Shown piece by piece: positions 14,601-44,374 of a stretch of DNA of 64,000 bases. Every line of letters begins with the position of its first letter. Within the stretch, counting starts at the first letter, position 1. Under the pieces are notes generated by a model. It ran no database searches. It saw only the letters and a program-made list of their open reading frames with translations, and had not been told where the DNA came from. Position numbers and translations under genes: made by a program. The stretch is from contig NZ_QKZO01000001.1 in the NCBI RefSeq assembly GCF_003254295.1, forward strand, positions 124,001 to 188,000. The letters are read 5' to 3'. The DNA is from Rhodobacter capsulatus. GTDB lineage: Bacteria > Pseudomonadota > Alphaproteobacteria > Rhodobacterales > Rhodobacteraceae.

Positions 14601-14740
14601 GGGGCGCTGCCCCCCGTCCGCAAGCGGACTCCCCCCGGGATATTTGCGGCAAGGTGAAAGCAGATCCGGGTTGCCTTTCACCTTGGGCCAAATATCCCGG
14701 GGGGTGAATTGGCCAAAGGCCAAGAGGGGGGCAGCGCCCC
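14601..14740. repeat. Large compound inverted repeat after kdsA (REP-like, bidirectional terminator-like)
   Basis: Two arms face each other. The outer arms are GGGGCGCTGCCCCCC (14601-14615) and its exact reverse complement (14726-14740). The inner arms, 14631-14660 and 14675-14704, match at 27 of 30 positions and contain CCCCCCGGGATATTT and GGTGAAAG. Each arm resembles the repeat at 8430-8475. It lies between convergent kdsA and the flavoprotein gene, where a two-way terminator would be useful. Such elements recur between Rhodobacter genes. Confidence 0.75.
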
Positions 14741-14751
14741 CCCTGCCCCGC

Positions 14752-15939
14752 TCACAGAACCTGCGCCGCCGCCCAGGCCGAGGACCAGGCCCACTGGAAG
14801 TTGTAACCGCCCAGCCAGCCGGTCACATCGACGACCTCGCCGATGAAATGCAGCCCCGGCACGGCTTTCGCCTCCAGCGTCTTCGCATCAAGCGCCTCGG
14901 TCGCGACGCCGCCCACCGTCACCTCGGCGGTGCGATAGCCCTCCGACCCCACGGGGCGGACCTGCCAGGCCTGCACCTGCGCCGCCAGCTGCGCCAGCGC
15001 GCGGTTGCCGTGATCGGCCAGCCGCCCCGACAACCCCGATTGCGCCACCGCCAGCGCCGCCAGCTTGTCGGGCAAAAGCCGGCCAAGCGCGGTGTGCAGC
15101 GCGATCCGCCCGGTTTCGGCACGGATCGCGGCCAGCTCCCCGGCGATGTCGCGCCCCGGCGCCAGATCGATCACCAGCGCCTCGCCCTCGCGCCAGTAGC
15201 TGGAAATCTGCAGGATCGCCGGGCCCGAGAGGCCGCGATGGGTGAACAGCAGGTCTTCCTCCAGGCGGCGCTTGCCCAGGCTCACCCGCGCGGGCAGGCC
15301 GATCCCCGCCAAGGGCGCGGTGCGCACCAGATCCTGTTCGGCAAAGGTCAGCGGCACCAGCCCGGGGCGGGTCTCGGTCAGCCGCAGCCCGAAGCTTTCG
15401 GCAAGGCGATAGCCCAGCCCGGAGGCGCCCAGCTTCGGGATCGACTTGCCGCCCGTCGCCACCACCACGCGCGGCGCGCAAAGCACGCCCTCGGAGGTGA
15501 CCACCTCGAATCCCCGCGCCCCCTGCCGCACCGTCTCGATGGCGCAGCCCAGCCGGATCTCGCCGCCCGCGCGCAGATCGGCGAGCAGCAGATCGACCAG
15601 CTGCCAGGCCTTGCCGTCGAAGAACAGCTGGCCGCGGTGCTTTTCGCGCCAGGCGATGCCCGCGGCCTCGATGCGGGCGATCATGTCGGCGGGGGTGAAG
15701 CGGCTGAGCGCCGACAGCGCGAAGCGGGGGTTTTCCGACAGGAACCGCTCGGGCGCGTTTTGCCGGGTCAGCTCGCGGTTGGTGAAGTTGCACCGCCCGC
15801 CGCCCGAGATCCGGATCTTTTCGCCGGGGCGCTGCGCATGATCCAGCACGATCACGCGGCGGCCGCGGCGGGTGGCTTCGGCGGCACAGAAGAGCCCGGC
15901 GGCCCCCGCACCAAGGATGATGGCATCAAATTGGGTCAT
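14752..15939 (-). CDS. BaiN/HI0933 (YhiN) family flavoprotein
   Basis: The 395-residue protein begins with a dinucleotide-binding motif (AIILGAGAAGLFCA) and the family signature EKIRISGGGRCNFTN. Near the C-terminus it has GGVATEALDAKTLEAK and then LHFIGEVVDVTGWLGGYNFQWAWSSG-like sequence that closes the FAD site. Members bind FAD and probably NAD(P)H. Some (BaiN) reduce bile-acid intermediates, but the role in Proteobacteria is not known. It is a single gene, convergent with kdsA across the inverted repeat. Its start is about 100 bases upstream of the divergent tRNA-Gln. Confidence 0.92.
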   Translation of the reverse strand: MTQFDAIILGAGAAGLFCAAEATRRGRRVIVLDHAQRPGEKIRISGGGRCNFTNRELTRQNAPERFLSENPRFALSALSRFTPADMIARIEAAGIAWREKHRGQLFFDGKAWQLVDLLLADLRAGGEIRLGCAIETVRQGARGFEVVTSEGVLCAPRVVVATGGKSIPKLGASGLGYRLAESFGLRLTETRPGLVPLTFAEQDLVRTAPLAGIGLPARVSLGKRRLEEDLLFTHRGLSGPAILQISSYWREGEALVIDLAPGRDIAGELAAIRAETGRIALHTALGRLLPDKLAALAVAQSGLSGRLADHGNRALAQLAAQVQAWQVRPVGSEGYRTAEVTVGGVATEALDAKTLEAKAVPGLHFIGEVVDVTGWLGGYNFQWAWSSAWAAAQVL

Positions 15940-15995
15940 ACGAGGGCTTTGCCTGCGGCGGAAAAAAAGCGCAACGGATTTCGTGATTTTTCCTC

Positions 15996-16024
15996 TTGCG
16001 CCCCCCCGCAGCCTTGGCTAAACA
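15996..16024 (+). promoter_or_regulatory. Promoter of tRNA-Gln
   Basis: TTGCGC (15996-16001), a 17-base spacer, and TAAACA (16019-16024) lie 15 bases before the tRNA 5' end. The spacing is ideal for a housekeeping sigma factor, and the -35 matches the usual Rhodobacter TTG-rich form. Confidence 0.5.
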
Positions 16025-16038
16025 CCGCCGCACAGCGT

Positions 16039-16113
16039 TGGGGTATCGCCAAGCGGTAAGGCAGCGGTTTTTGGTACCGCCATTCCTAGGTTCGAATCCT
16101 AGTACCCCAGCCA
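16039..16113 (+). tRNA. tRNA-Gln (anticodon TTG)
   Basis: The acceptor stem TGGGGTA pairs with TACCCCA (16103-16109), and the discriminator G is at 16110. CCA is encoded at 16111-16113. The anticodon loop reads TTTTGGT with anticodon TTG, and the T arm contains GGTTCGAATCC. The mature body is 16039-16110. The DNA just downstream holds insertion-sequence scraps, so this tRNA may have served as an integration site. Confidence 0.97.
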
Positions 16114-16588
16114 TTCCACCGAATAAGTCTTGAAAAACAGAGAACGAGCCCTCGCGGCTTGGACATTCTGGGGACGGGCACCACAAACGGTTGCACACCG
16201 GGCACCACAAACACCCGATGCAACCCTGCGGAACCCGACGCGCCGAAGACCTTGCCAGCGACTTTGAAAAGAGGTCGTCATGAGGGGCCGCCCTGTCTTT
16301 GCCAGCGTTTAGGAGGCTTTCATTTCGCCGCCGCATCCCGGGGTTTCCCCCAAAATACGACCGGTGATGGTTTCGGCTCGGGACGACAGACAGCTTGGAC
16401 AGCGTTTAAATGATGTGTGCAGCTCTCTGCGTGCCAATCTGCGTCGACTGGTGCCCCCGATCGGCGTCCGAGAGGGCCGCCCCCGGCGAGCGGGTGGGCA
16501 GGCCCGTGGCGGCGCAGCTTTCCAGCTTGCGCAGCCGACGCGGGCCCGCGTTTCCGTGGGCCTTCAGGCTCGGGGGGCGTTCAGGCTC
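16114..16588. other. Non-coding accessory strip after tRNA-Gln with a 13-bp direct repeat
   Basis: No convincing gene is seen; open frames here have frame-shadow composition. The 13-mer GGGCACCACAAAC occurs twice, at 16176-16188 and 16200-16212, with a 24-bp period. Its origin is unknown. Remnants of an element integrated at the tRNA are one possibility. Confidence 0.5.
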
Positions 16589-18939: not shown

Positions 18940-20202
18940 CTAGTCCGCGGCAGATGGCATGTCTTGCGACAGGTCCGCCCGGCGGCCGCGCTTGCGCAGC
19001 AGTTCTGACAGGCGGCTTCTGGTGATCACGAGGGCGATCAGACCGGCGACCAGACCCCAGAACCCGGATCCGATCCCCCAGACCACAATCCCCGAAGCCG
19101 TCACGAGGAAGGTGATCATCGCCGCCTCGCGGTGCTCTGCATTGGTCAGCGAACCGGTCAGTCCGTTGGTCAATGCCGACAGCAAGGCAAGCCCGGCCGT
19201 GGCCGAGATGAACGCGGCGGGCAGAGACTGGATCAGACTGGCGACCGAGGGGCCGAGCAGGCCGAAGACGATGTAGAAAATGCCGCAAAAGACACCGGCG
19301 ACATAGCGTTTGGCCGGGTCCTTGTGGGCCTCGGGGCCGGTGCAGATGGCCGCCGTCAGGGCCGCAAGCGTGATCCCGTGCGAGCCAAACGGCGCAAGCC
19401 CCACCGAGACGGCGCCCGTGGTCTGCAAGATCCCCGTGACGGGCGGCCGGGAATACCCCGCCGCCTCAAGCACGGCCAGCCCGGGGATGTTCTGCGAGGC
19501 CATGGCCACAACGAAAAGCGGAATCGCGATCCCGACAATCGCCTCGATCGACACGGCGGGCCAGGTCATGACAGGATGGACGATCGCAAGCTGCACGGTA
19601 TCGGTGTCCACCTCGCCCCCGATCAGGCTGATCGCCAGACCGGTCAGCAAGGCGCCGATCACCGCATAGGTCGGATAGAACCGCCGCCCCAGCAGAAAGA
19701 CCGCCGCCATCGGAATGACAAGCTGCGGGGTTTCGCGCATCGACCCGATCAGCTGCAAGCCGAACTGCAGCAAGATCCCCGCCAGCATCGCCGCCGCGAT
19801 CTGCGGGGGCATCTTCAACACCATCCGCTGAAACCCCGCCGAAAATCCCAAAGCGAGGATGAGCGCGCCGGTGACCAGAAAGGCGAAGATCGCCTCCTGA
19901 TAGGAATAGATGCCCAGAGCGCCGATCAGCAGAGCCGCCCCCGGTGTCGAGAAGGCCGTGATGATCGGAAGCTTGTAGCGCAGGCTCAGCACCAGCCCGG
20001 CAATGCCGCTGCCAAGCGAGATCGACCAGATCCACGTGGCCAGCTGCATATCGCTGAGACCCGCCGTCTTGGCGGCTTGAAACACGATGACCAGGGGCCC
20101 GGCATAGGAGACGATCACCGCCACCAGTCCGGCGGTGATCGCACTGAGAGATGTATCTTCCAGGAGTTTCTGAAACACGGGACGCTGACCTTCTGAACTC
20201 AT
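18940..20202 (-). CDS. BenE-type (benzoate/H+ symporter family) membrane transporter
   Basis: This 420-residue integral membrane protein has about 11-12 hydrophobic segments and the BenE-family features STPGAALLIGALG and APFGSHGITLAALTAAICTG. The family includes benzoate/H+ symporters, but few members are characterised. The start at 20202 overlaps the stop of the upstream PLP-enzyme gene (ATGA), so it is the last gene of the MocR-headed operon. That context suggests an amino acid or its degradation product rather than benzoate. Both import of substrate and export of product are possible. No aromatic-degradation genes are nearby. Confidence 0.88.
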   Translation of the reverse strand: MSSEGQRPVFQKLLEDTSLSAITAGLVAVIVSYAGPLVIVFQAAKTAGLSDMQLATWIWSISLGSGIAGLVLSLRYKLPIITAFSTPGAALLIGALGIYSYQEAIFAFLVTGALILALGFSAGFQRMVLKMPPQIAAAMLAGILLQFGLQLIGSMRETPQLVIPMAAVFLLGRRFYPTYAVIGALLTGLAISLIGGEVDTDTVQLAIVHPVMTWPAVSIEAIVGIAIPLFVVAMASQNIPGLAVLEAAGYSRPPVTGILQTTGAVSVGLAPFGSHGITLAALTAAICTGPEAHKDPAKRYVAGVFCGIFYIVFGLLGPSVASLIQSLPAAFISATAGLALLSALTNGLTGSLTNAEHREAAMITFLVTASGIVVWGIGSGFWGLVAGLIALVITRSRLSELLRKRGRRADLSQDMPSAAD

Positions 20203-21413
20203 TTCGGGATGGATGGCATGGCGATCATGCGGCGCAGGCTGGAGATGTCCTTGAGGCCGTTGCCGGTGCTGAGGATCACGGCCTCGGACCGCCCCCCCAG
20301 CAGATCCTGTTCGCGCGCGCGGATCACCCCGGCGCAGGCGGCCCCGGCCGCGGGTTCGACCAGATAGCCACAACGCGCCATGAGGCGCATGGCCTCCAGC
20401 ACCTGGTCATCGGACACTTCGACATAGGCCCCCGCGGTTTTTGTGACCGCATCAAGCGCCTTGAACCGGTCTTGCGGCACTTCCGCCTGAAGGCTGTCGG
20501 CAATGCTGCAAGCGCTGCGCCGTTCGACCTGATCGAGCGGGATCTGCTGCCCCCAGGCGCGATAGAGAAAATTGCTTCCCGCGACCTGAACCCCGAAAAT
20601 CCGTGGCATCGCGCCAATCCAGCCGAGCGCCAGCAGATCCGAGAAGCCCTTGTGCAGACCACCTATGATCGACCCGTCTCCGACACCGACGAAGACGGCC
20701 TCCGGTGCCCGCCAGGCCAATTGCTCGCAGATCTCGTAGGCGGCGGTCTTCTTGCCCTCGGTCATCAGCGGATTGATCGCCGTGCTGCGCAGATACCAGC
20801 CGCGTTCCCGGGCCTCGTGCAGGCAGGTGGCGAACGCCATGTCGTAGCTGCCCGCGACCAGGATGACCTCGGCCCCATAGGCCCGAATGGAGAGAAGCTT
20901 TTCCGCCGGGGTCGTTTCGGGCACATAGACGACGGCGTGCAGCCCGGCATTTGCCGCCAGACAGGCCAGAGCCGCCGCCGCATTGCCCGTGCTTGCGGTG
21001 GCGATGGTCCGAAACCCCGCCTCCCGCGCATGGGCGACGGCCATCGCGCTTGCACGATCCTTGAGCGATCCCGACGGCTGGCGCCCCTCATCCTTGATCA
21101 GAACCGCCCCGACCCCGACCTGCCTTGCGAGCGTCGCATTCGGGCTGAGCGGGGTCGCCCCGACGCTGATTTCGGGCAAGATCGCGTCGGGCCCGATCGG
21201 CAGAAGCGCCCGATAGCGCCACATGTCCTGACGCGCGCCGAGGTCGAGATCCTCGCGCCGCAGGCCTTGCCAATCATAGACCACGTCCAGCACGGCTCCC
21301 TCGGCCGCGCAATCACACAGATAGCGGAACGGCGCGAAGGGATGAAGCTTGTCGCAGCGCACGCAGCGCAACGCCTGCGCCCGTGACGGCAGGTTCCCGG
21401 AATGAAGGGTCAT
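20199..21413 (-). CDS. Threonine synthase-like PLP enzyme
   Basis: The 404-residue fold-type II PLP enzyme has its Schiff-base lysine at K118 (SGSLKDRAS) and a phosphate-binding Ser/Gly loop in ASTGNAAAAL. Four cysteines near the N-terminus (C17, C20, C33, C35) form a possible zinc ribbon, as in class II threonine synthases. True threonine synthase acts on O-phosphohomoserine. With RidA two positions upstream, an elimination reaction that releases an unstable enamine is an alternative, as with diaminopropionate ammonia-lyase or threonine dehydratase. It overlaps the transporter gene by four bases. The substrate is not known. Confidence 0.85.
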   Translation of the reverse strand: MTLHSGNLPSRAQALRCVRCDKLHPFAPFRYLCDCAAEGAVLDVVYDWQGLRREDLDLGARQDMWRYRALLPIGPDAILPEISVGATPLSPNATLARQVGVGAVLIKDEGRQPSGSLKDRASAMAVAHAREAGFRTIATASTGNAAAALACLAANAGLHAVVYVPETTPAEKLLSIRAYGAEVILVAGSYDMAFATCLHEARERGWYLRSTAINPLMTEGKKTAAYEICEQLAWRAPEAVFVGVGDGSIIGGLHKGFSDLLALGWIGAMPRIFGVQVAGSNFLYRAWGQQIPLDQVERRSACSIADSLQAEVPQDRFKALDAVTKTAGAYVEVSDDQVLEAMRLMARCGYLVEPAAGAACAGVIRAREQDLLGGRSEAVILSTGNGLKDISSLRRMIAMPSIPK

Positions 21414-21456
21414 GATCTGCTGCCGGGTTCGGACATCTTGAGACCCGCGAGCACCT

Positions 21457-21846
21457 TCAGCACGTCTCGAGCATCATGATCGCTTCGATCGCGACCGCGC
21501 CACCCGCCGGAAGGGCCACCGCGCCGACGGCGGATCGCGCCGGATAGGGTTCGGAGAAAAACTCGGCCATGCACCGGTTCACGATCGGGAAATCGCCGAA
21601 ATCGGTCAGGAACACGGTGACCTTGACGACGTCATCGAGGCTGCCGCCCGCTTGCCGGGCCACGGCAGCCAGGTTCTTGAGGCACTGGCGGATCTGAACC
21701 TCCGGCGTGCAGGCCGCCAAAGACCCTTCCACCGGGTCGATCGGCGCCTGCCCCGACAGAAAGATCATGTTGCCGGCCTTGCGCGCCTGCGTGTAGGTGC
21801 CGAGCGGAAGGGGGGCCTCCGGGCTTTCGATCACTTCATGATACAT
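21457..21846 (-). CDS. RidA family enamine/imine deaminase
   Basis: The 129-residue YjgF/RidA protein has the family's PLGTYTQARKAGNMIFLSGQ start and the catalytic-type Arg in YPARSAVGAVALPAGGAV. RidA hydrolyses reactive enamines or imines made by PLP enzymes and amine oxidases. The start at 21846 has AAGGAG upstream. It overlaps the end of the flavin oxidase gene by 11 bases and lies 43 bases before the threonine synthase-like gene. Both neighbours could release an imine or enamine, so its function here is probably dedicated to this pathway. Confidence 0.93.
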   Translation of the reverse strand: MYHEVIESPEAPLPLGTYTQARKAGNMIFLSGQAPIDPVEGSLAACTPEVQIRQCLKNLAAVARQAGGSLDDVVKVTVFLTDFGDFPIVNRCMAEFFSEPYPARSAVGAVALPAGGAVAIEAIMMLETC

Positions 21847-23005
21847 GGCACAACTCCTTGGCCGAATTGGCGCCGCACAGGCGCGTTGGGGAAATTTCTT
21901 CGAGACCGATTTCATTTCGGTCCATAAAGGCGGGCAACCGGGCCTGCCGCAGGAGCGCCGCGGCCAGTTCGGCCATCGCCGGGGCGGTCTGGATGCCGTA
22001 CCCACCCTGCCCGGCGAGCCAGAAGAACCCGTCGCAGCGCGGATCGAAGCCGATCACGGGGTTGCGGTCGGGGGCAAAGCTGCGCAGCCCTGCCCAGCGG
22101 GCCTGCACCGAGATCACCTTGCCGCGCAACGCGGTCTCGAAACGGTCCGCGGCGATGGCCACGTCCATCTCGTCCGCGGTCACATCCGACGCCGGTTCCG
22201 GCGTTTCGTCGCAAGGCGAGATCAGCAGCCCCTGCTTGCTGGGCTTGAAATAGAAGCTTTCCTCGACGTCGCCGATATAGGGCCATGCCGCCATTTCAAG
22301 ATCGACACGGGCCAGAATGGCACTGCGCTTCAAGGGCGTGATCCCCAACGGGGTCAACCCGGCCAGACAGGCAATCTCATCCGCCCAGGCCCCGGCGCAA
22401 TTGACCAGCGTCTTTGCGCGATAAACGCCCTGCGGTGTTTGCACGACCCAGATATCCGCTTCGCGACGCAGCGCCAGCACGGGGCTGCTGCACACGACAT
22501 GCCCGCCGCCGCGCCGAAAACGACGCAGATAGGACTGATGGAGGGCATGGACATCGATATCCTTGGCATCCGGCTCCAGCGCCCCCGCGACCCAATCCTC
22601 CCTGAGAGCGGGAAACTCCCGGCGCAGGTCCTCGGCGGAAAGCCAGCGCACGCTGTCGGTCAGCTGCGCCACCTCGTCATGCAATTTGCGCAGCTTGGCC
22701 AGCCCGCTGTCGCGCGCCACGAAAATCGCGCCGCGCGGCGCAATCAGCGGCGGATCGTCGCGCAACGAATTCAGATAGAAGTCCCTGCTGTAATGGGTGA
22801 GGAGACGAAAGATCCGGCTGCCATAGGTCTCGAGAAAGATCGCGGCGGATCGCCCGGTCGTGTGATAGGCGAGCTGACTTTCCTGCTCGAGAAGAACCGT
22901 GCTTTCCCCGGCTGCGGCCAGTTCCGCCGCGACGGAAACGCCCGCGATTCCCCCCCCGATCACCAGATAGGTGAAATTTTTCGGTGTACCGGCCGTGCTC
23001 ACCAT
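21836..23005 (-). CDS. FAD-dependent amino-acid oxidase/dehydrogenase (DAO/ThiO family)
   Basis: This 389-residue flavoprotein opens with the dinucleotide motif YLVIGGGIAGVSVAAELA at residue 13-30. A DAO-type C-terminal region follows with WAGLRSFAPDRNPVIGFDP and WLAGQGGYGIQTAPAM. The family oxidises glycine, sarcosine, proline and D-amino acids to imines. A RidA gene directly downstream, overlapping by 11 bases, would hydrolyse such an imine. The start overlaps the stop of the SbnB-like gene. No signal peptide is present, so it acts in the cytoplasm or at the inner membrane face. The true substrate is open. Confidence 0.88.
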   Translation of the reverse strand: MVSTAGTPKNFTYLVIGGGIAGVSVAAELAAAGESTVLLEQESQLAYHTTGRSAAIFLETYGSRIFRLLTHYSRDFYLNSLRDDPPLIAPRGAIFVARDSGLAKLRKLHDEVAQLTDSVRWLSAEDLRREFPALREDWVAGALEPDAKDIDVHALHQSYLRRFRRGGGHVVCSSPVLALRREADIWVVQTPQGVYRAKTLVNCAGAWADEIACLAGLTPLGITPLKRSAILARVDLEMAAWPYIGDVEESFYFKPSKQGLLISPCDETPEPASDVTADEMDVAIAADRFETALRGKVISVQARWAGLRSFAPDRNPVIGFDPRCDGFFWLAGQGGYGIQTAPAMAELAAALLRQARLPAFMDRNEIGLEEISPTRLCGANSAKELCHVS

Positions 23006-24042
23006 CTGGAAAACTCCGGCAAAAGCCCGTCGATGCGGCGCAACAGCCCGCGTTCCTGCGCGGCGTTCAGCACGACATGCGCGACGGCCAGATCAAGGAT
23101 GCCCATGCCGAAGGCCGAGACGACGACGGGGCCTTCCGGGCGTGGCGCACCCGGCGCGATGGCCGCGTAATTCGCGACGTTTTCGACACGGCCCTGCCTC
23201 TGCTGCAACAGGTGCAAAGAGGTATTGGCTTTCAATGCGTGGCTGACGTCATCCACCACATTGAAGACCGGCGCCTTCAATCGCTCGGGCACGATGTCGC
23301 GCAGCGACATGTGAAGCACAGTCTGATCGGCTTGAAACGGATGGTCATACCACGGCGCCAGCGCCGAGGTCGCGAAGGAGATCAGCCCGCTGTCGCAGCG
23401 CCGTGATGTGTCTCCGACATGCGCCGAAAGCCCGCGAGCCGCGCAATGTTGCGTGAACGCCTCGGCGCTGGCGGAAACAGGATCGCAGATCGTGACATGA
23501 TCGAACCGCCAGCCATCGGCCTGCAAATAGGCCAGAAGATCGCGATTGATGACCCCTGCCCCATAGAGGGTGAACGCGTCCGTTTCACGGCCGGGGACAA
23601 GACACCTCGCCGCAAGCGCCGCACTTGCCGCGGTGCGCGCGGAACTGATCAGCGTCCCGTCGAGCACCGCGAGGGGATAGCCGGTCTCGAAGGAGTTCAC
23701 AACGATCAGCGCCGACGCCCGTTGCCGGTTTCGCGCCACGTTGTCCGGAAAAGAGGCCACCCATTTCAGCCCGGCCAGATCGACGTCGCGACCGATATAA
23801 GCGGGCAGCGCATTGATGCGGCTGTTGGATTTCTGCGGGAAGCGCAACGAATAGGTGTCGGGATTGATCGCCTCCTGATGATAGAAGGCGTCATAGGCTT
23901 TCGCCACCACCTCGATGATTTGGGTGCGCGCGCTGGCCAGAATCGAGGCGATATCCCTGGCTCGGACATAGCTCGGCTCATCGGCCTCGCGCCAGGATGT
24001 GCCGTCTTTCGCTTCGGCACGACGCAGATCTTCGACAATCAT
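22999..24042 (-). CDS. SbnB-like / ornithine cyclodeaminase family dehydrogenase
   Basis: The 347-residue protein has the ornithine cyclodeaminase fold. GLKWVASFPDN is the substrate-loop segment, and the NAD-binding turn is LYGAGVINRDLL at 159-170. It resembles SbnB, which oxidatively cleaves N-(2-amino-2-carboxyethyl)-glutamate to 2,3-diaminopropionate and 2-oxoglutarate. The start at 24042 follows AGGA with good spacing; an in-frame ATG at 24069 has none. SbnB-type identity is favoured because an SbnA-type gene lies 88 bases upstream. Alternatives in the same fold are ornithine cyclodeaminase, EutC-like and imine reductases. Confidence 0.82.
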   Translation of the reverse strand: MIVEDLRRAEAKDGTSWREADEPSYVRARDIASILASARTQIIEVVAKAYDAFYHQEAINPDTYSLRFPQKSNSRINALPAYIGRDVDLAGLKWVASFPDNVARNRQRASALIVVNSFETGYPLAVLDGTLISSARTAASAALAARCLVPGRETDAFTLYGAGVINRDLLAYLQADGWRFDHVTICDPVSASAEAFTQHCAARGLSAHVGDTSRRCDSGLISFATSALAPWYDHPFQADQTVLHMSLRDIVPERLKAPVFNVVDDVSHALKANTSLHLLQQRQGRVENVANYAAIAPGAPRPEGPVVVSAFGMGILDLAVAHVVLNAAQERGLLRRIDGLLPEFSRW

Positions 24043-24130
24043 GTTTGATCCTGCAGATAAAATGTCCATCGACCCCGGGGAAACGGACCGGGTGTGCGCC
24101 CGCTCGGGCGACGATTGCGACCGGGGCGCC

Positions 24131-25129
24131 TCAGTTCCGGGCGAGAAGCCCGGGGTAGTGCTGGGCAACCCAGGCGTCGCTGTAGATCGTGTCGACATAT
24201 TTGTCGCCGCGATCAGGACTGATCGTCACCACGAGCGCCCCGGCCGGAAGACGGTGTTGCAGGGTGCGAATACCGGCCAGGACGGACCCGGACGAGCCGC
24301 CCAGAAGCACGCCATGGTGGCGCGCGAAGCGTCGGCATTCGAGGATCGTCTGAGCCTCGTCGACCATGATGACCTCGTCGGGCCGGTGCGCCTCGCTGAT
24401 CGGCGGGCGTCGGCTTGTGCCCAGCCCCGGGATACGCCGTGTCCCGGAGGGGCCCCCGAAGGTCACCGAGCCGACGACATCGACCGCGATGATCCTGGCT
24501 GGATGTCCCACCTCGCGGAACCGCGACAGGCATCCCATCAAGGTGCCCGTCGTGCCCGCCCCGACGATCAGGTAATCGACCTCCGGATAGGTCATCAGGA
24601 TCTCGTTGGCGGTGGTGCGTGCGTGAATATCGGGATTGGCGGGATTGGCGTATTGGTTGGTCCAGACGAGTTCGGGATCCTGCGCCAGCGCCGCCTCGAT
24701 ATGGGCGATCCGGCTCCCCAGATAGCCGCCGTTCGCGTCCTTCTCGGACACGACGACGAGATTGCCGCCAAGCGCTCGGATCAGGGCGAGGCTGTCTTTC
24801 GCGGCGTTCGGGTCGACCACGCAGGTGAATTTGTAACCGCGGTTGGCACAGACCATCGCCAAAGCGATGCCCAGATTGCCCGACGAGGATTCAATCACAT
24901 GTCCGTTGGGGCGCAACCGGCCTGCCGCTTCGCAATTGGCCACCAGCGCCAGCGCCGTCTTGAGCTTGATCGACCCGCCCGGATTTGAGCCCTCGAACTT
25001 CACAACGACATTCAGATCCGGCCCGAAATCGATCTCGGCAAATTGCATCGGGCTGATCAGGTTCCACAGGAACCCCGTTTCGCCGGTTTGCCGATCCCGT
25101 GACAGCGCGCGCGTCGCAATCTCTAGCAT
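24131..25129 (-). CDS. SbnA-like PLP synthase (cysteine synthase superfamily)
   Basis: The 332-residue fold-type II PLP enzyme has VVVKFEGSNPGGSIKLKTAL, with the Schiff-base lysine at K55, and the phosphate-site loop SSSGNLGIALAM. The SIKLK form, rather than SVKDR of cysteine synthase, is typical of SbnA proteins. SbnA joins O-phosphoserine and glutamate to N-(2-amino-2-carboxyethyl)-glutamate, and the length fits S. aureus SbnA (326). The start at 25129 is the first ATG after a 100-base gap from the regulator gene. True cysteine synthase is at 57415 in this window, which makes a second CysK role less likely. Confidence 0.85.
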   Translation of the reverse strand: MLEIATRALSRDRQTGETGFLWNLISPMQFAEIDFGPDLNVVVKFEGSNPGGSIKLKTALALVANCEAAGRLRPNGHVIESSSGNLGIALAMVCANRGYKFTCVVDPNAAKDSLALIRALGGNLVVVSEKDANGGYLGSRIAHIEAALAQDPELVWTNQYANPANPDIHARTTANEILMTYPEVDYLIVGAGTTGTLMGCLSRFREVGHPARIIAVDVVGSVTFGGPSGTRRIPGLGTSRRPPISEAHRPDEVIMVDEAQTILECRRFARHHGVLLGGSSGSVLAGIRTLQHRLPAGALVVTISPDRGDKYVDTIYSDAWVAQHYPGLLARN

Positions 25130-25152
25130 AGCCACCTCGTAGCCTGAAATTT

Positions 25153-25195
25153 GGCACAGCCTATGCGTGCATCCGCGCCGCCAGAAGGGGCACAG
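25153..25195. promoter_or_regulatory. Direct repeat GGCACAG upstream of the sbnA-like gene
   Basis: GGCACAG occurs at 25153-25159 and 25189-25195, 36 bases apart in the same orientation, between the regulator and the SbnA-like gene. MocR regulators often bind spaced direct or mixed repeats in such positions. The match is short, so it is only a candidate. Confidence 0.3.
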
Positions 25196-25229
25196 AGGCC
25201 GGTTTCGAGGAGACACAGATCCGAGGCGT

Positions 25230-26636
25230 TCAGCCCCTCGCGGCGATTTCGCCGATCTCGATCAGCACCGCGCGCGTGGCGGCACAGAGCCTGCGCGTCA
25301 TGCAGAGCCGAAAGCTTGCAGGGGTCTGCGGCGCCCCGAAGATCGTCCCGCGCGAAACCTCGATCCCGCCTGCCTCCAACGCGGCAAAAAACCTGTCGGC
25401 ATCGACATTGTCCGGCAGCGTGATCCAGTAGACCCCTCCGGCCAGCGGGCGGGAAATCTGCGTTCCGGCGGGGAAATGGGTCGCGATCAGGCCAAGGATC
25501 TCCTGCCTTTGGCGGGCGAAGATCTGGCGCACGCCCTTCAGATGGTCTTCAAGCATCTGCGAGCCGATCAGTCGTTCGGCGATCCGCTGTCCGGGCGTGG
25601 AGATGCAGCGGTTTTCCGACAACAGCTTGCCCGTCAGATCCGCGTGGAAACGCCCCGGCAGGCACCATCCGACCCGCAGCCCGGGCGCCAGAACCTTGGA
25701 GAGCGACCCGAGATAAAGAACACATCCGGTCTCATCGAAGGCCTTCAAGGGAGGGGGGCTGTCCTTTGCCTCGAGAAGCCCGTCGAACACGTCATCCTCG
25801 ATGATGACGCAGTCCCGCGCCTGCGCCGCCCTCACCAGCCGTCGCCGATCCTCGAGGGGCAAGGTGTAGCCCAACGGGTTGCTCAGCGTCGGATTGAGGA
25901 ACAGCATCCCGATCCTGCCCGCTTCGATCAGCGCGATCGCGCGCTCGGTATCAAAGCCCCGCACACTGTCGGACTCCAGCTTGTGCACCGACAGGGTCAA
26001 CCCTTCGACGGCCCTCAGACAGCCGAAATAACAGATCCGGTCATGCGCGATCGCGCCGAACCGCTTCGACAGAAACTGCAGCAGGAGGCGCAGGAATGTG
26101 TTGTCCCCCTCGGTGATGAGGACATCCTCCGCCGAGCACGTGACCCCGCGGCGCCTCAAAGCCTGTGCGATCAGTCGCCTCAGGCGGACGCTGCCCGGCG
26201 GCAATTCCAGCGTCACGAAATCGTCCCAGGAGTGCCCGATCGCCTGCTTGGCCAAGGTCGCGATCCGCGCCGCGGGGATCAGCTCCGTCTCGAGCACCGC
26301 CGACGAAAAGGACCGCGCGCGGTCCTGCCCGCCCAGGATCAGCCGCGCGACCATCGCCTCTTCCGTTTGCCCGGCCTCGAAGCCCTCCAGCCAGGTGTTG
26401 CGCATCGACCCGGTGTCGGCCACGAAATGCCCGATGCGATCGCGCGTGTAGATGACCCCCCGGCGCCGCAGCTCGTCGATCGCCTTCTCCACGGTCTTGC
26501 GGCTGACCCCTGCATCGCGCATCAACACCCGAACGGAGGGGATCTTGTCGCCGGGACACAGCACCTTTCGGGCAATCTTGTCCTCGATCGCCCGGGCAAC
26601 CTGCAGATAGATGTATTTTTCGGACAGCTTTCTCAT
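25230..26636 (-). CDS. MocR-type transcriptional regulator (GntR HTH + aminotransferase domain)
   Basis: This 468-residue regulator has an N-terminal GntR winged helix (residues 1-75: KIPSVRVLMRDAGVSRKTVE then RRRGVIYTR). The rest is a fold-type I aminotransferase-like domain with its PLP lysine in GSLSKVLAPGLRVGW (about residue 310) and the NPLGYTLP segment. MocR proteins sense an amino acid or amine through PLP chemistry; EnuR, GabR and PdxR are examples. It is first in line before the SbnA-like gene on the same strand, so it probably controls the downstream genes and may be co-transcribed. A 7-bp inverted repeat lies upstream at 26718-26741. Confidence 0.92.
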   Translation of the reverse strand: MRKLSEKYIYLQVARAIEDKIARKVLCPGDKIPSVRVLMRDAGVSRKTVEKAIDELRRRGVIYTRDRIGHFVADTGSMRNTWLEGFEAGQTEEAMVARLILGGQDRARSFSSAVLETELIPAARIATLAKQAIGHSWDDFVTLELPPGSVRLRRLIAQALRRRGVTCSAEDVLITEGDNTFLRLLLQFLSKRFGAIAHDRICYFGCLRAVEGLTLSVHKLESDSVRGFDTERAIALIEAGRIGMLFLNPTLSNPLGYTLPLEDRRRLVRAAQARDCVIIEDDVFDGLLEAKDSPPPLKAFDETGCVLYLGSLSKVLAPGLRVGWCLPGRFHADLTGKLLSENRCISTPGQRIAERLIGSQMLEDHLKGVRQIFARQRQEILGLIATHFPAGTQISRPLAGGVYWITLPDNVDADRFFAALEAGGIEVSRGTIFGAPQTPASFRLCMTRRLCAATRAVLIEIGEIAARG

Positions 26637-27228: not shown

Positions 27229-27852
27229 TCATTGGACAGGCCGGACCGCGGCCCGGCTGTCGTCCGCCTGCCCCTGTCGCGGTGCGGCAACACGGGGCCG
27301 GCGCGCGGGGCCGATCAACTCCTCCAGCCGCAGCCCGGTCTGCACCTCGGCGCGCAGAACCACCATCGCGGCGGCCTTCGCATCCTCGCCCGCGTCGTGA
27401 TGCACAAAGTCGAGGGCCAGCGCCTGTTTGAGATGGGCAAGCCCGTGCCCGCCTTTGCCGGAAAATTCGGGCCAGGCGCGGCGGGCGATCTGCACGCTGT
27501 CGGCCCAGTGCCAGACCGGCTCGGGCAGGTCGTGGGCGTTGCAGGCCCGATGGATCGCCCCCCGGTCGAAGGGGCTGTGCTGAATGACGATCTGCGGTTC
27601 AAGCAGGGGCGCGATCAGGGCCAGGACCTCGGGGAAGGTCGGCGCCCCGCGCACCTGCGCCGGGCCGATGCCGTGCAGCGCCAGATTGAAGGGCGCAAAG
27701 GGCTGGCGCGGGTCGATCAGCGTGCTGAACACCTCGATTGCGCCGTCGTGCCGGACACAAGCCAGCCCGATCTGGCACAGGCTCGCAGCATCGGCATTGG
27801 CGGTCTCGACATCGAGCGCGATGAAGCGGAACGGGCCTGCGGGAAGGGACAT
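27229..27852 (-). CDS. DEDDh 3'-5' exonuclease (DnaQ-like)
   Basis: The 207-residue protein has exonuclease motif I as FIALDVETANAD (D and E ligands), motif II with HSPFDRGAIHRA, and motif III with HHDAGEDAKAAA (H and D). This is the DNA polymerase III epsilon/RNase T superfamily. It is a free-standing exonuclease, not a polymerase-linked epsilon, since it lacks the long C-terminal extension. The ATG at 27852 is preceded by AAGGAG; the frame is open for 24 codons upstream without a better site. The C-terminal 30 residues are basic and disordered. Substrate (DNA or RNA) is unknown. Confidence 0.9.
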   Translation of the reverse strand: MSLPAGPFRFIALDVETANADAASLCQIGLACVRHDGAIEVFSTLIDPRQPFAPFNLALHGIGPAQVRGAPTFPEVLALIAPLLEPQIVIQHSPFDRGAIHRACNAHDLPEPVWHWADSVQIARRAWPEFSGKGGHGLAHLKQALALDFVHHDAGEDAKAAAMVVLRAEVQTGLRLEELIGPARRPRVAAPRQGQADDSRAAVRPVQ

Positions 27853-28001
27853 GCGTTTCTCCTTGATCGGTGCGCCGTGTGGGGGGCTGCCCGACACGCC
27901 CGTGATATCTGCGCATCTGCGCACAGGGAATGCCGGATCTTCGCCAGTTCCAATTTCCCGAGTCCGAGCCAGATTAAGCGCATCGACCCAGGGAGCCGCC
28001 G

Positions 28002-28910
28002 ATGACCTTCAGACCCGTTCTTGCCACCAGCACCGCAGCGCCCGCCATCGAAGGCGCAGGCGTGCATCTGCAACGCGTTTTCGGCTTTGGCGACCCGGCG
28101 CTGACCGATCCCTTCCTGATGATGGACGATTTTCGCAACGACGATCCGCGGCTTTATTCCAAGGGGTTTCCGTGGCATCCGCACCGCGGCATCGAGACGA
28201 TCACCTATGTGCTCGAGGGTCAGGTGGAACACGCGGATTCGCTGGGCAACCGGGGGCTGCTTGGCGCGGGCGGGGTGCAATGGATGACGGCGGGCTCGGG
28301 GCTCGTGCATCAGGAAATGCCCTTCGGCAATGCCGAGGGACAGATGCACGGCTTTCAGCTTTGGGCCAACCTGCCTGCCGCGCTGAAGATGACCGCGCCG
28401 CGCTATCAGGACGTTTCGGCGGGCGACATCCCCGTAGAGGGGGATGACGATGGCACCACCGTCAAGGTGATCATCGGCACGTTCTGGGGCAAGACCGGCC
28501 CGGTCGACGGGATCGCGGCGAACCCGATGCTGCTTGACGTCTCGGTCCCGCCGGGGCGGCGCAAGGTGCTGCCGGTGGACACGCGGGCGAATGCGCTGGC
28601 CTATGTCTTTGCCGGATCGGGAACGTTCCGGGATGCAGCCGATCCGGTCGGTATCAAGGTCGAGAAGGAGTTTCGCGGGCAGGAGTTGACCCTGCGCGAC
28701 CGCACCGGCAATCGCACCCTCGTGCGCTTCGGCACGGGAGAGGCGATCACGGTGCAGGCAGGCGACGAGGGGATCCGGTTTCTGCTGATGACCGGCCGCC
28801 CGATCCAGGAACCCGTCGCCTGGCACGGGCCGATCGTGATGAACACGCAAGAGGAACTGCGTCAGGCCCTGCGCGAATTGAACAACGGCACCTTCATCAA
28901 GCACGGCTGA
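28002..28910 (+). CDS. Pirin family protein (first of two)
   Basis: The 302-residue bicupin has the pirin metal site in PWHPHRGIETITYVLEG (two His) and the matching His/Glu in SGLVHQEMP, then the pirin C-terminal cupin. The start is followed by FRPVLATSTAAPAIEGAGV, which is usual for this group. Pirins bind Fe(II); some have quercetinase activity and others act as redox-sensing cofactors. It is divergent from the exonuclease gene by 149 bases. A second pirin gene lies 1.8 kb further on. The two are not recent duplicates; their lengths and metal-site neighbours differ. Confidence 0.93.
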   Translation: MTFRPVLATSTAAPAIEGAGVHLQRVFGFGDPALTDPFLMMDDFRNDDPRLYSKGFPWHPHRGIETITYVLEGQVEHADSLGNRGLLGAGGVQWMTAGSGLVHQEMPFGNAEGQMHGFQLWANLPAALKMTAPRYQDVSAGDIPVEGDDDGTTVKVIIGTFWGKTGPVDGIAANPMLLDVSVPPGRRKVLPVDTRANALAYVFAGSGTFRDAADPVGIKVEKEFRGQELTLRDRTGNRTLVRFGTGEAITVQAGDEGIRFLLMTGRPIQEPVAWHGPIVMNTQEELRQALRELNNGTFIKHG

Positions 28911-28965
28911 GGGGACGTGACTGCGGCGGCAGACAGGCGTCCGGCCTGGAGGCGAGGCGGCCCGG

Positions 28966-29424
28966 TCAGACAGCGGCTGTCAACCGCGCCTTCAGCACGG
29001 CCAGCAGCCGGTTTGCCGCCGCGATCTCTCCGGGCGAAAGGCCCTCGGCCAGGGCATTCACCTGCGGATCGTAAAGCCCCAGCGCCGAGGCCGCGGCCGC
29101 CGCCCCCTTGTCGGTCAGCACGACCAGCTGCGCGCGCTTGTGATGCGGGTTGGGGGCAAAGGTCACCAGCCCCTCCTGCGCCAGATCGTTGACGATGCGC
29201 TGCACATTCTGCCGACTGGCGCCCAGATCGCGGGCCAGCCAGGCGACCGGCTGCGGATGCGCCGCCACCACCACCGCGCCCAGCACCTGCCAGCGCGCCG
29301 AGGTCAGCCCCAAAGGCGCCACCAGCCGGTCCCCCCAGGCCAGCAGCAGGTTGTTGACCCGGAAAAGCTCCAGCACCAGCGCCGTCAGCGCCTCGCCTGC
29401 TTCACTGCGCAGCTCCCTGTGCAT
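28966..29424 (-). CDS. MarR family transcriptional regulator
   Basis: The 152-residue winged-helix repressor has the MarR recognition segment VAWLARDLGASRQNVQRIVN and the wing VTFAPNPHHKRAQLVVLT. It is divergent from a four-helix membrane protein gene at 29521. A perfect palindrome, TGACAAT-CT-ATTGTCA, lies between them at 29445-29460, 20 bases upstream of its own start. MarR proteins usually repress themselves and the divergent gene by binding such a site, so the pair is probably one regulatory unit. Ligand unknown. Confidence 0.92.
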   Translation of the reverse strand: MHRELRSEAGEALTALVLELFRVNNLLLAWGDRLVAPLGLTSARWQVLGAVVVAAHPQPVAWLARDLGASRQNVQRIVNDLAQEGLVTFAPNPHHKRAQLVVLTDKGAAAAASALGLYDPQVNALAEGLSPGEIAAANRLLAVLKARLTAAV

Positions 29425-29444
29425 TCGTCAACAGTCCCTCATTT

Positions 29445-29460
29445 TGACAATCTATTGTCA
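29445..29460. promoter_or_regulatory. MarR operator (perfect palindrome)
   Basis: TGACAAT-CT-ATTGTCA has perfect 7-bp arms with a two-base spacer, the size and form of MarR-family operators. It lies in the 96-bp divergent region between the MarR gene and the membrane protein gene, so binding would cover both promoters. Confidence 0.7.
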
Positions 29461-29520
29461 TTTATGCAACCTCGTGACGATACCGCGGCCCCGCGGCGCG
29501 CGCAACCCAAGGAGAGTACC

Positions 29521-29958
29521 ATGACAAAGACCCTTCACCCGCTTGCCGGTCTCATCGCCCTTGCCACCATCGCCAGTTTCTGGAGCGCGACGGTGCTGGC
29601 CGAACTCTTCGGCTCCGCCGCCACCATTGCCACGGTCAAGACCGCCATTCTTTGGGGCTTTCTGCTCCTGATCCCGGCGCTGGCGGCGACCGGGGCCAGC
29701 GGTTTGGCGCTGGCGCGCGGCGCCACCGGCGGGGGGATCGGGGTCAAGCGCAAACGGATGCAGACCATCGCCGCCAATGGGCTGTTCCTTCTGGTGCCCT
29801 CCGCGCTTTTTCTCGCCATGCGGGCGCGGGCCGGGGCGTTCGGGCTTGATTTCGCGCTGGTGCAGGCGATCGAGTTGATCGCGGGGGCGGTCAATCTGCG
29901 GTTGCTGTGGCTGAACCTGCGCGACGGACGCCGGATGACGGCCGCGCGGCGCGGGTAG
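29521..29958 (+). CDS. Small membrane protein, four transmembrane segments
   Basis: The 145-residue protein has four hydrophobic stretches (about 7-27, 38-60, 84-103 and 110-130) and a basic loop GVKRKRMQTIAANG between the second and third. AAGGAGAG precedes the ATG at 29521. I do not recognise a named family. It is divergent from the MarR gene across a shared operator, so it is probably induced by the MarR ligand, as with small efflux or detoxification proteins. Its 3' end overlaps the broken AraC gene on the other strand by 68 bases. Confidence 0.75.
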   Translation: MTKTLHPLAGLIALATIASFWSATVLAELFGSAATIATVKTAILWGFLLLIPALAATGASGLALARGATGGGIGVKRKRMQTIAANGLFLLVPSALFLAMRARAGAFGLDFALVQAIELIAGAVNLRLLWLNLRDGRRMTAARRG

Positions 29959-30564
29959 CCGCGCGCCAGGCCTGCGGGGGCAACCCGGTTTCGGCCTTGA
30001 AGGCGCGGGTGAAATGGCTTTGGCTGGAAAACCCGCAGCCCAGCGCGATTTCAATGAGCGGGGTCTCGGTGGCCAAAAGCCGCTTCGCCCGCGCGATCCG
30101 CGCCGCCCGGACCCAGCCCTGCAGCGGCACGCCGCGCGCGGCGTGAAACATCCGGTGCAGGTGGAATTCGGAAAGCCCGACCAGATCGGCCAGAGCGCCA
30201 AGCCGGATCGGGCCGTCCAGATGCGCGGCGATCCAGTCGTCGATCCGGCGCAACAGATGCGGCGCCAGCCCGCCCTTGAGCCGCAGCGGCCCGGCGCCCA
30301 GATCGGCGATCAGATCCGCCCGCGCCGCCTCGGCCGTCAGCAGACGGCCCCCGGCCGACCGTGGCCGAACCTTCCGTCGGTGCGCCGGGTGCCGGTGCCG
30401 CCCTCGAGATAAAGGCTGAAGACATGGCCGCTGTGCCCGCCGTAGCGCACCCGGTCATCGCGGTTTTCCCAGATCGCCACCGACCCCGCCGCGCCAAGGC
30501 TCAGCGCGGCGGTGGCGCGCGCACTGGCAGAAGTTTCAAGCCTGTCGCGGATGGTGCGGCTCAT
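29891..30564 (-). pseudogene. AraC-family regulator with internal deletion and frame break
   Basis: The N-terminal half starts at 30564 (MSRTIRDRLETSASARA) and shows the cupin-like sensor start, YGGHSGHVFSLYLEGG. It stops at 30337 just after GRPGAVC. The C-terminal half is in another frame and has an intact AraC DNA-binding domain: LADLVGLSEFHLHRMFHAA and ALGCGFSSQSHFTRAFKAETG. In relatives about 100 residues of sensor domain separate these blocks; here only about 20 do. A deletion that changed frame near 30335 explains this. Restart at the TTG at 30253 could still make a free DNA-binding domain of about 120 residues. Confidence 0.75.
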
Positions 30565-30671
30565 GCGCCACCCTCCGGTGCGTCCCCGCACAGATCCCGC
30601 GCAGGAAACGGCCGGGACGCAGGCGAAATGCGCCCTATATTCCTCTCATCCCCGCGACAGAGGAGGCAAGG

Positions 30672-31622
30672 ATGAGCTGGAACCCGACGCAGGCGCATGA
30701 CGCCCCCGGCCCCGGGGCCGTTGAGACCCTGATCATCCCGCGCGCCCGCGACATCGGCGGCTTCGAGGTGCGACGCGCCCTGCCCGCCCCCGCGCGGCAG
30801 ATGGTCGGCCCCTTCATCTTCTTCGATCAGGTCGGCCCGGCCGAATTCCTGACCGGCGGCGGCATCGACATCCGGCCGCATCCGCATATCGGCCTTGCCA
30901 CGGTCACCTATCTTTACAAGGGCGCGTTCGAGCACCGCGACAGCACCGGCGCGCATCAGATCGTGCATCCGGGCGCGGTGAACTGGATGATCGCGGGGAG
31001 TGGCGTGACCCATTCCGAACGCACGAGCCATGAGATGCGCACCCGTCGCGGATCGCTTTTCGGCATCCAGACCTGGGTGGCGCTGCCCGAGGCCGAGGAG
31101 GACCGCGCCGCCAGTTTCGAGCATCACAGCAAGACGGCGCTGCCCTTTCTGGAAGCCGAGGGCAAACAGGTGCGGCTGATCCTGGGTCAGGCCTGGGGGG
31201 CGCGGGCGCCGGTGAAAACCTTTTCCGAGACCTTTTACGCCGATGTCGTTCTGGCGCCCGGCGCCCGGTTGCCCCTGCCCGACGAGCACGAGGATCGCGG
31301 CGTCTATGTCGTCGAAGGCGCGGTCACGGTGGCCGGAGACATGTTCGAGGCCGGGCGGATGATGGTCTTTCGCCCCGGCGACCGGATCAGCCTGAGCGCC
31401 GGGCCGCAGGGCGCGCGGCTGATGGCCCTGGGCGGGGCGACGCTGAACGGGCCGCGCTACATCTCGTGGAATTTCGTCGCCTCCTCGCGCGAGAAGATCG
31501 AGGCCGCGCAACAGGCCTGGGCGCAGGGCGACTGGGACCACGGCCGGTTCCGGCTTCCGCCCGGCGACAGTGCCGAATTCATCCCGCTGCCCGAGGCATT
31601 GCAGCGCAATCCCGCGCCCTGA
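30672..31622 (+). CDS. Pirin family protein (second of two)
   Basis: The 316-residue bicupin has the metal-site sequence DIRPHPHIGLATVTYLY and GSGVTHSERTSHE, the pirin His/Glu ligands, and a C-terminal pirin domain ending in RYISWNFVASS. GGAGGCAAGG precedes the ATG. It belongs to the YhhW-type group, one of whose members degrades quercetin in E. coli. It is transcribed away from the broken AraC gene, whose lost product may once have controlled it. It converges on the large flavoenzyme gene with 27 bases between stops. Confidence 0.92.
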   Translation: MSWNPTQAHDAPGPGAVETLIIPRARDIGGFEVRRALPAPARQMVGPFIFFDQVGPAEFLTGGGIDIRPHPHIGLATVTYLYKGAFEHRDSTGAHQIVHPGAVNWMIAGSGVTHSERTSHEMRTRRGSLFGIQTWVALPEAEEDRAASFEHHSKTALPFLEAEGKQVRLILGQAWGARAPVKTFSETFYADVVLAPGARLPLPDEHEDRGVYVVEGAVTVAGDMFEAGRMMVFRPGDRISLSAGPQGARLMALGGATLNGPRYISWNFVASSREKIEAAQQAWAQGDWDHGRFRLPPGDSAEFIPLPEALQRNPAP

Positions 31623-38788: not shown

Positions 38789-38912
38789 CTCTGCGTCCTC
38801 CTTCGATAATACTCCGGGAAGGACATGAAAAGCGGCAGTTCGTATTTGCGCCCAACCTGCGGCAGAGGGCCATTAGCTCGAAGCAGCCCACATGATTTCT
38901 TGGGAGGCGAGC

Positions 38913-40490: not shown

Positions 40491-41377
40491 GCGATATCGA
40501 AACCCACGACAAGGTGCAGATTATCCCAATTGCGGCCATCACCATTGAAAATCCACGCGAACGATCTGAAAAGACCTTCCGTGCACTGGTGGACAGTATC
40601 GGCAAGGTGGGGCTGAAGAAGCCGATCACCGTCGCGCGGGATGACACGGCGCCAGGGGATGCCTATCGGCTGGTCTGCGGTCAGGGGCGGATGGAGGCCT
40701 ATGTTGCACTTGGCGAAACCCACATCCCGGCCGTCGTCGTGGACGCGAACGAGGTCGAACGACTTCTGCGTAGCGTGATCGAGAACATCGCCCGTCGTCA
40801 GCAGCGACCTCTCGAGTTGCTGCAGGATATCGCCATCCTGCGGGACCGAGGATATTCGGACCACGACATCGCCGAGAAAACCGGATTGTCATGGTCGTAC
40901 GTTCACGAAATTGGCGAGTTGATCGCCAACGGCGAGGAACGACTGCTGATCGCGGTCGAGACCGGTCAGATGCCCCTCAGTGTCGCACTGTATATCACCC
41001 GGGCGGAAGAGAAGGATGTGCAGAAGGCGCTGGAGGCAGCCTATGCTTCCGGTGAGTTGCGGGGCAAGAAGCTTCTGGAAGCTCGGCGGCTGGTGGAACT
41101 GCGCCACCGGCATGGCAAGAGAAAAGGTGCCACGCGCACAAAGCGATCTGGGGGGCGGATGACATCGGCGGCGCTCGTCCGGGCCTATCGTATCGAGGCG
41201 GAACGCCAGCAGGACATGATCCGCAGGGCCCAGTCGACGCGCGGCAACCTGCTGTTTCTCGACGCGGCGTTTCAGTCCCTGCTCAAGGATGAGAACTTCC
41301 TCACCTTGCTCCGTGCCGAGGGGCTGGATTCTCTGCCGAGCATGGTGGTCGAAGGTCTCAAGGAACCTCGGACATGA
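40484..41377 (+). CDS. ParB/RepB-like protein 1
   Basis: The 297-residue protein opens with a ParB N-terminal fold: IPIAAITIENPRER, LVDSIGKVGLKKPITV, then the phosphate-binding LVCGQGRMEAYVALGE and the ENIARRQQRPLE block. An HTH follows (YSDHDIAEKTGLSWSYVHEI). ParB proteins bind DNA and use CTP. Here there is no ParA or replication gene nearby. It overlaps the recombinase by seven bases and the next ParB-like gene by four, so the three are translated as one unit. A regulatory or recombination-accessory role is more likely than plasmid partition. Confidence 0.87.
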   Translation: MVSDIETHDKVQIIPIAAITIENPRERSEKTFRALVDSIGKVGLKKPITVARDDTAPGDAYRLVCGQGRMEAYVALGETHIPAVVVDANEVERLLRSVIENIARRQQRPLELLQDIAILRDRGYSDHDIAEKTGLSWSYVHEIGELIANGEERLLIAVETGQMPLSVALYITRAEEKDVQKALEAAYASGELRGKKLLEARRLVELRHRHGKRKGATRTKRSGGRMTSAALVRAYRIEAERQQDMIRRAQSTRGNLLFLDAAFQSLLKDENFLTLLRAEGLDSLPSMVVEGLKEPRT

Positions 41378-42988: not shown

Positions 42989-43011
42989 CTTGTTCTCCTA
43001 AGTGGGTAGGG

Positions 43012-43431: not shown

Positions 43432-43501
43432 GGCTGTACTCGGGCCGTTCTTGCAAAATTAGTGCTTTGCGGCTATATAGCTTCCAAGACATGATGATCG
43501 C

Positions 43502-44362: not shown

Positions 44363-44374
44363 GGAGGCCGCCGC

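Follow-up and report, generated by a model that had tools for sequence, protein, structure and literature searches.

SbnA and SbnB have so far been known as a source of L-2,3-diaminopropionate (Dap) for siderophores and peptide antibiotics, and, in the excerpted account of the reaction, O-phosphoserine and glutamate are joined to the conjugate ACEGA, which then yields Dap and 2-oxoglutarate (PMC9485241). A stretch of 64,000 nucleotides (nt) of Rhodobacter capsulatus (contig NZ_QKZO01000001.1, positions 124,001 to 188,000; the window hereafter) contains an operon which, like the staphyloferrin B genes sbnA-sbnB, encodes adjacent SbnA and SbnB family enzymes with a conserved SbnA, but which differs from them in that a siderophore synthetase is missing, SbnB is diverged and below its family cut-off, and a DAO flavoenzyme, RidA, a threonine-synthase-like (TS-like) enzyme, a BenE transporter and a MocR regulator are added. 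Judging from which genes are present and how they are arranged, from their families and from the residues conserved, the chances seem about even that this operon is a small, probably acquired unit which makes and moves a Dap-derived amino or keto acid. The exact seven-gene combination was seen at no other place in the samples searched; Dap-based small-molecule clusters are already known as a kind.

The operon, with all open reading frames (ORFs) present, occupies 26636 to 18940 of the minus strand and reads mocR-sbnA-sbnB-DAO-ridA-TS-benE:

mocR, 25230-26636, minus strand: regulator with Pfam GntR helix-turn-helix and Aminotran_1_2 domains, both over the gathering cut-offs
sbnA, 24131-25129, minus strand: SbnA family enzyme (TIGR03945), likely ATG start at 25129, ORF extendable to 25216
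sbnB-like, 22999-24069, minus strand: diverged NAD-dependent dehydrogenase of the ornithine cyclodeaminase (OCD) superfamily, best family TIGR03944
DAO, 21836-23005, minus strand: FAD-dependent amino-acid dehydrogenase/oxidase of the DauA (D-arginine dehydrogenase) type, Pfam DAO
ridA, 21457-21846, minus strand: enamine/imine deaminase, TIGR00004, likely start at 21846
TS, 20199-21413, minus strand: TS-like fold-type-II pyridoxal phosphate (PLP) enzyme with an N-terminal Cys motif, PALP
benE, 18940-20202, minus strand: BenE-family secondary transporter, TIGR00843 and Pfam BenE

That seven same-strand genes overlap or nearly touch had been proposed by a sequence-only reading of this DNA and is borne out by the ORF coordinates, the family identities being given by NCBIfam and Pfam. 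TS and benE share an ATGA at 20199-20202, DAO and ridA overlap by 11 bases (21836-21846) and sbnB and DAO by 7 bases (22999-23005), and gaps of about 100 nt, 61 nt and 43 nt separate mocR from sbnA, sbnA from sbnB and ridA from TS respectively. The sbnB ORF can be extended to 24198, but would then reach 68 nt into sbnA, so that a start at 24069 or 24042 is likelier. In a search for operators, no direct repeats were found upstream of mocR or sbnA, and promoter-like and terminator-like sites stayed within about one standard deviation of shuffled sequence.

The argument for Dap chemistry begins with SbnA, which scores 386.6 bits against the curated NCBIfam model TIGR03945 (cut-off 349.95) and is thus a member, well under the CysK/CysM cut-offs (cysK 186 against 351; cysKM 207 against 344), so that the earlier assignment of this enzyme holds. 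Its best match in the PDB is Staphylococcus aureus SbnA (5d87), and it retains all 45 near-invariant columns (at least 93% conserved across 77 relatives). An ordinary cysteine synthase, also considered, is ruled out by these family scores and by separate cysK genes in the genome. Since the host, with a source genome of 3.67 Mb, carries its own cysK, ilvA, trpB and thrC, SbnA and the TS-like PLP enzyme are extras.

The flavoenzyme (Pfam DAO, 208.8 bits) finds its best PDB matches in DauA 3nyc (E 7.8e-79) and 6p9d. Identical to DauA are A46, Y53, R222, Y249, G303, R305 and Q336, among which we take R222, Y249, R305, Y53, G303 and Q336 to be the carboxylate-binding and core residues, and H48, T50, E87, M240 and V242, presumably the side-chain pocket with E87 binding the basic side chain of D-Arg, are replaced by I, L, A, Y and G; positions 48 and 87 vary in three other homologues as well. 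As the carboxylate residues are kept and the pocket residues changed, the window oxidase should bind the carboxylate of an amino acid, but lacks the side-chain pocket for D-arginine. RidA exceeds the cut-off of TIGR00004 (127.8 bits against 106.25, with a query that had one extra codon), and its place beside a DAO and a PLP enzyme fits, as far as the available literature excerpts go, the release of an imine or enamine. The TS-like protein (PALP, 245.8 bits) misses the ThrC cut-offs listed, PRK08197 with 259 against 303 and TIGR00260 narrowly with 166.8 against 167.1. Where two aligned ThrC chains have NPYRIEGQ or NPYRLEGQ, the former presumably the phosphate-binding loop of ThrC, it reads NPLMTEGK and so lacks the phosphate-loop Arg, as do several unproven relatives; it is, on this comparison, probably not a threonine synthase. 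Its relatives among the matches listed are only 32-39% identical (on plasmids at most 38% among the best 30 of 70 records), and because they are so distant no informative neighbour set exists for this gene.

Taken together as a pathway, the fully conserved SbnA would condense O-phosphoserine with glutamate, and the diverged SbnB-like enzyme would cleave the conjugate oxidatively, giving Dap or a closely similar compound. Going by their families, the DauA-like flavoenzyme would dehydrogenate Dap or its product at an α-amino group, and RidA would hydrolyse the resulting imine. The TS-like PLP enzyme would carry out elimination, replacement or racemisation on a non-phosphorylated amino acid. BenE would transport the resulting small carboxylate, be it outward or inward, and MocR would sense a Dap-like amine as a PLP aldimine and thereby control the operon, by analogy with EnuR, a MocR regulator for which the accessible part of one report names acetylated diaminobutyrates as inducers and diaminobutyrate as a weaker one (PMC8739950).

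The recurrence of BenE behind sbnAB comes from a comparison of 79 SbnA stretches with a mean of 19 kb (7 plasmid records, 15 genome-contig loci and 57 loci from genome searches), which include all 51 SbnA places in 40 of 394 actinomycete genomes; some are shortened by contig ends, a few are duplicates (L027 = L069), L015-L018 were omitted as the same places as L096-L099, and neighbours were scored by tblastn (E ≤1e-10, at least 100 residues). Four of these loci, L038, L102, L103 and L105, carry sbnA, sbnB, a CreE-like NAD_binding_9 flavoenzyme, a Cys/Met PLP enzyme and benE in this order on one strand, the Pfam assignments having been made for L038, a Streptomyces nigrescens plasmid with the cluster at L038:8064-14566. 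The window agrees with this order, with ridA interposed between flavoenzyme and PLP enzyme. The L038 flavoenzyme matches the aspartate N-hydroxylase 8cp2 (E 2.8e-60), an enzyme that, in the published excerpt, produces nitrosuccinate (PMC10404684), and the combination of sbnAB with an aspartate-N-hydroxylase-like enzyme suggests an N-oxygenated diaminopropionate product of the actinomycete clusters. As a control, any BenE was found in only one of the 14 genomes behind the genome-contig SbnA loci, and there on a different contig from sbnA (31,389 versus 41,041 bases).

Synthesis and transport are favoured over catabolism because SbnA is fully conserved and BenE recurs behind sbnAB in actinomycetes. 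The sequence-only reading had offered either synthesis and export of a Dap-derived molecule or the reverse use of an N-substituted amino acid; the same SbnA sites and recurrent BenE favour synthesis, and export we only infer. In the literature, the matches listed held no description of the actinomycete cluster, of the window gene set or of any cluster of this sort with BenE. As a lead, the actinomycete sbnAB-CreE-like-benE cluster has the wider reach. A wider generalization, which we regard as tentative and on the whole doubtful, is that SbnA-SbnB and BenE form the fixed core of an apparently undescribed family of clusters without non-ribosomal peptide synthetases (NRPSs), in actinomycetes and in this host, which convert free Dap to small amino acids in oxidised form, with N-oxygenation in the former and dehydrogenation and PLP-dependent rearrangement here, with BenE as product transporter and not as benzoate symporter. 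If true, stand-alone SbnAB together with an oxidase, a PLP enzyme and a transporter would point to free non-protein amino acids made without assembly lines, the poorly understood BenE family would gain a second role, and the N-oxygenated Dap products of the actinomycete clusters could be looked for directly.

A number of observations weigh against these interpretations. The exact seven-gene set was found in none of the 79 SbnA loci, and the middle enzymes are of other kinds, DAO and PALP in the window versus a NAD_binding_9 aspartate-N-hydroxylase-like protein and a Cys/Met type PLP enzyme in the actinomycetes, where neither RidA nor, with three MocR queries, mocR gave a match at the four loci. 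Conserved co-occurrence, which the earlier reading had named as a check, with adjacency in this strain alone as refutation, is found for the wider layout (4/79) and not for the full set of seven, which among the samples searched occurs in this genome only. Moreover, L038, L102 and L103 are closely related (SbnA 83-90%), and the sbnA match of the distant L105 (53%) is interrupted by one in-frame TGA, so that the latter cluster may be broken at sbnA and at most two benE-linked cases are independent. In the SbnA tree, the window falls in a group of eight rows with all four BenE-linked SbnAs at a modest support of 81/81; when the five benE-linked SbnAs were constrained together, p-AU was 0.357, versus 0.355 for a rival placement, neither being rejected, and both constrained groups had been chosen after inspection of the tree. 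The window BenE is 47-49% identical to the four cluster BenEs and, with hardly any difference, 46-48% to several others. In the SbnB tree, tried as a sign of descent shared with the benE clusters, the window is not grouped with these four, and its SbnB lies on a long branch (2.06).

Some grouping is seen in the BenE tree, where the window stands weakly (87/66) with the four cluster BenEs and one Rhodococcus BenE, and a starred branch (100/98) separates a wider set, which on the window side holds L153, L163 and the Gemmobacter plasmid BenE L181, from 24 of 26 other same-family BenEs. Common descent of an sbnAB-benE module in the window and in actinomycetes is, from these trees, possible.

SbnB itself belongs among the opposing points. 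Although TIGR03944 is by far its best family, the score of 296.2 bits does not reach the cut-off of 326.9, the best PDB match, 4m54, has an E value of 2.8e-22, and 13 of 81 near-invariant columns are lost, the highest loss of 58 rows in a leave-one-out comparison (next 9, median 1); as the divergent rows L032, L035, L076 and L094 and matches below 290 residues had been dropped beforehand, this rank is valid for the remaining family only. What stands of the SbnB-like identity claimed before is the nearest family, and because many conserved sites are changed, the staphyloferrin B reaction is not to be transferred to this enzyme unchanged.

A diverged SbnB beside a DauA-type enzyme also brings to mind Pseudomonas aeruginosa dauBAR, which inverts D-arginine to L-arginine. 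DauB belongs to the OCD superfamily, and both loci pair a DauA-type FAD dehydrogenase with such a dehydrogenase; they differ in that the window oxidase lacks E87 and H48, SbnB stands in place of DauB, and further enzymes are present. Accordingly, a catabolic or stereo-inversion operon can be drawn up, in which an unusual D-amino acid, imported by BenE, would become a keto acid through the DauA-like enzyme and RidA. The SbnB-like enzyme would re-aminate or reduce this keto acid, in the way DauB acts next to DauA, and degradation would fall to the two PLP enzymes. dauB directly precedes dauA on a P. aeruginosa plasmid, a dehydrogenase-DAO pair working in catabolism that likewise speaks against Dap synthesis, and the retained DauA carboxylate-binding residues and the divergence of SbnB are also compatible with breakdown, as is a Rhodomicrobium relative of SbnA (L024) whose neighbours, an uptake system, an M24 hydrolase, a TS-like enzyme and IclR, look catabolic. 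SbnA, however, retains every conserved site of an anabolic family and has no clear part in degradation, and BenE recurs behind sbnAB in actinomycetes, which leaves such a catabolic operon unlikely. Ectoine catabolism operons (EnuR/EhuR, EutB, EutC) equally combine a MocR regulator, an OCD-family enzyme and a fold-type-II PLP enzyme, but the window proteins are far under the EutB, EutC and EhuR model cut-offs.

The 79 loci bear on a further explanation, that Dap from the operon is used by a synthetase for siderophores or peptides encoded at another place in the genome and that the remaining operon enzymes recycle side products. With an NRPS match in 51 of the stretches, this is the commonest SbnA setting in the sample. 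The absence of NRPS, siderophore synthetase and iron-uptake genes stated by the sequence-only reading nevertheless holds for the operon and for 30 further Pfam-tested window ORFs between 13.7 and 54.5 kb, the extent of the search within window and genome, and DAO, the TS-like enzyme and BenE would be left without a function; we hold this provision of Dap to be distinctly unlikely. Besides NRPS, the 79 loci contain a CreE-like flavoenzyme in 8 cases, BenE in 4, a TS-like enzyme in 1 (Rhodomicrobium L024) and RidA in none, together with one remote DAO match (23%, about 8 kb away) and one remote MocR match (27%). The 15 genome-contig loci, from 22 pattern stretches, have SbnAs at most 52% identical and in no case the whole set, and viral contigs gave no matches to SbnA or the TS-like protein.

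Clusters on Rhizobium sp. CB3171 (L019) and Deefgea piscis (L020) resemble the window in that SbnAB is followed by a flavoenzyme, CreE-like in these cases, without an NRPS match in the stretch, but differ in their transporters (EamA, lactate permease). The former, at L019:10955-17274 of a plasmid, encodes sbnA, sbnB and the CreE-like enzyme, then a DcsG-like ATP-grasp ORF, which matches D-cycloserine synthetase-like DcsG with 113.7 bits, below the cut-off of 360, and the EamA transporter. At L024:10001-17625 in Rhodomicrobium, an SbnA 52% identical to that of the window occurs without an SbnB match in the 20.9-kb stretch. Its neighbours there are the M24 hydrolase, IclR, the TS-like enzyme and, as the uptake system, a tripartite tricarboxylate transporter, and a plasmid of Agrobacterium pusense carries a unit of the form IclR-M24-PLP enzyme-TctCBA.

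The transporter is securely a BenE (TIGR00843, 358.1 bits against a cut-off of 203.4; Pfam BenE, 424.7 bits). BenE proteins carry an annotation as H(+) symporters, and benzoate genes are not found in the operon. MocR, predicted from its domains to be the PLP-binding regulator of the operon, scores best with PdxR (229 bits against a cut-off of 320), the equivalogs PdxR, EhuR, GabR and rhizopine MocR not being reached, and its relatives on plasmids are at most 31% identical among 30 records. benE is paired with a divergent mocR in 2 of 38 BenE loci, most of which extend only about 1.5 kb per side. These two pairs (L181:1259-4152 and L184:1348-4179) are 64% alike mutually, and one of them lies near a YggS-family PLP protein; their arrangement agrees with a role of BenE in B6 or amino-acid transport that is controlled by MocR. 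BenE may thus be an importer, possibly of pyridoxine, which adds to the difficulties of an exported Dap product. Taken to its end, this would make BenE a MocR-controlled importer of vitamin B6 (pyridoxine) that serves the PLP enzymes, and the link to Dap would exist through cofactor demand only. To our knowledge, B6 uptake genes are not usual in such clusters, and the four actinomycete sbnAB-benE loci, as said, give no match to the MocR queries. We therefore judge it very improbable, in spite of the two divergent pairs and of a record, as far as its accessible part goes, of MocR regulons elsewhere that include BenE as putative pyridoxine transporter, threonine synthase and redox enzymes (PMC5320631).

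Beyond the benE end of the operon lies a tRNA gene:

tRNA-Gln, 16039-16113, plus strand: detected by ARAGORN, probable edge of an acquired, variable region

In blastn comparisons with 20-kb stretches from 5 of 15 other congeners that carry the flanking HI0933-like gene (L192-L196), similarity passes through the tRNA-Gln and ends at 16113-16319 in all five; beyond it, the lone match is one of 451 bases at 36877 to L195, and the far edge of the variable region was not located in this comparison. As congener similarity stops at the tRNA-Gln, the operon was probably acquired horizontally, at a variable site. The GC content of its genes (62-66%) is below that of 2-kb steps over 1-16 kb (65-69%), but since 38-56 kb of the window is equally low (60-65%) this is a weak sign of acquisition. 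For the flank at 14700-16200, the five best rows are plasmids of Paracoccus and Thioclava, with DNA identities near 70%. The Dap enzymes are rare in relatives: SbnA (E ≤1e-40) occurs in 4 of 295 genomes of the same family, the three besides the window's own being 35-36% identical, TIGR03945 is exceeded in 3 of 398 genomes of the phylum, and SbnB (E ≤1e-30) is found in 5 of 385 genomes of the class, the latter two counts with the own genome included. DAO matches exist in 11 of 18 genomes of the genus, the own included, and none outside the operon exceeds 46%.

With the operon seen only in this genome in the samples searched, with congener similarity ending at the tRNA-Gln and with a diverged SbnB, a recently acquired, decaying patchwork without a single pathway might be imagined, but seven open frames, three overlapping junctions and a fully conserved SbnA make this hardly credible.

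Elsewhere in the window, past the mocR end, an exonuclease-like (RNase_T) ORF at 27229-27924 is followed by two closely spaced pirin genes at 28002-28910 and 30672-31622 (region 27229-31622). Beside a tRNA-Ser, an island at 38892-54512 carries a large serine recombinase, two RepB/ParB-type proteins and pieces of an IS4/5-type transposase, as well as defence-like genes with a ZacC match of 726 bits, a MkoA-like match of 166 bits and a short TmtA-like piece adjoining the transposase.

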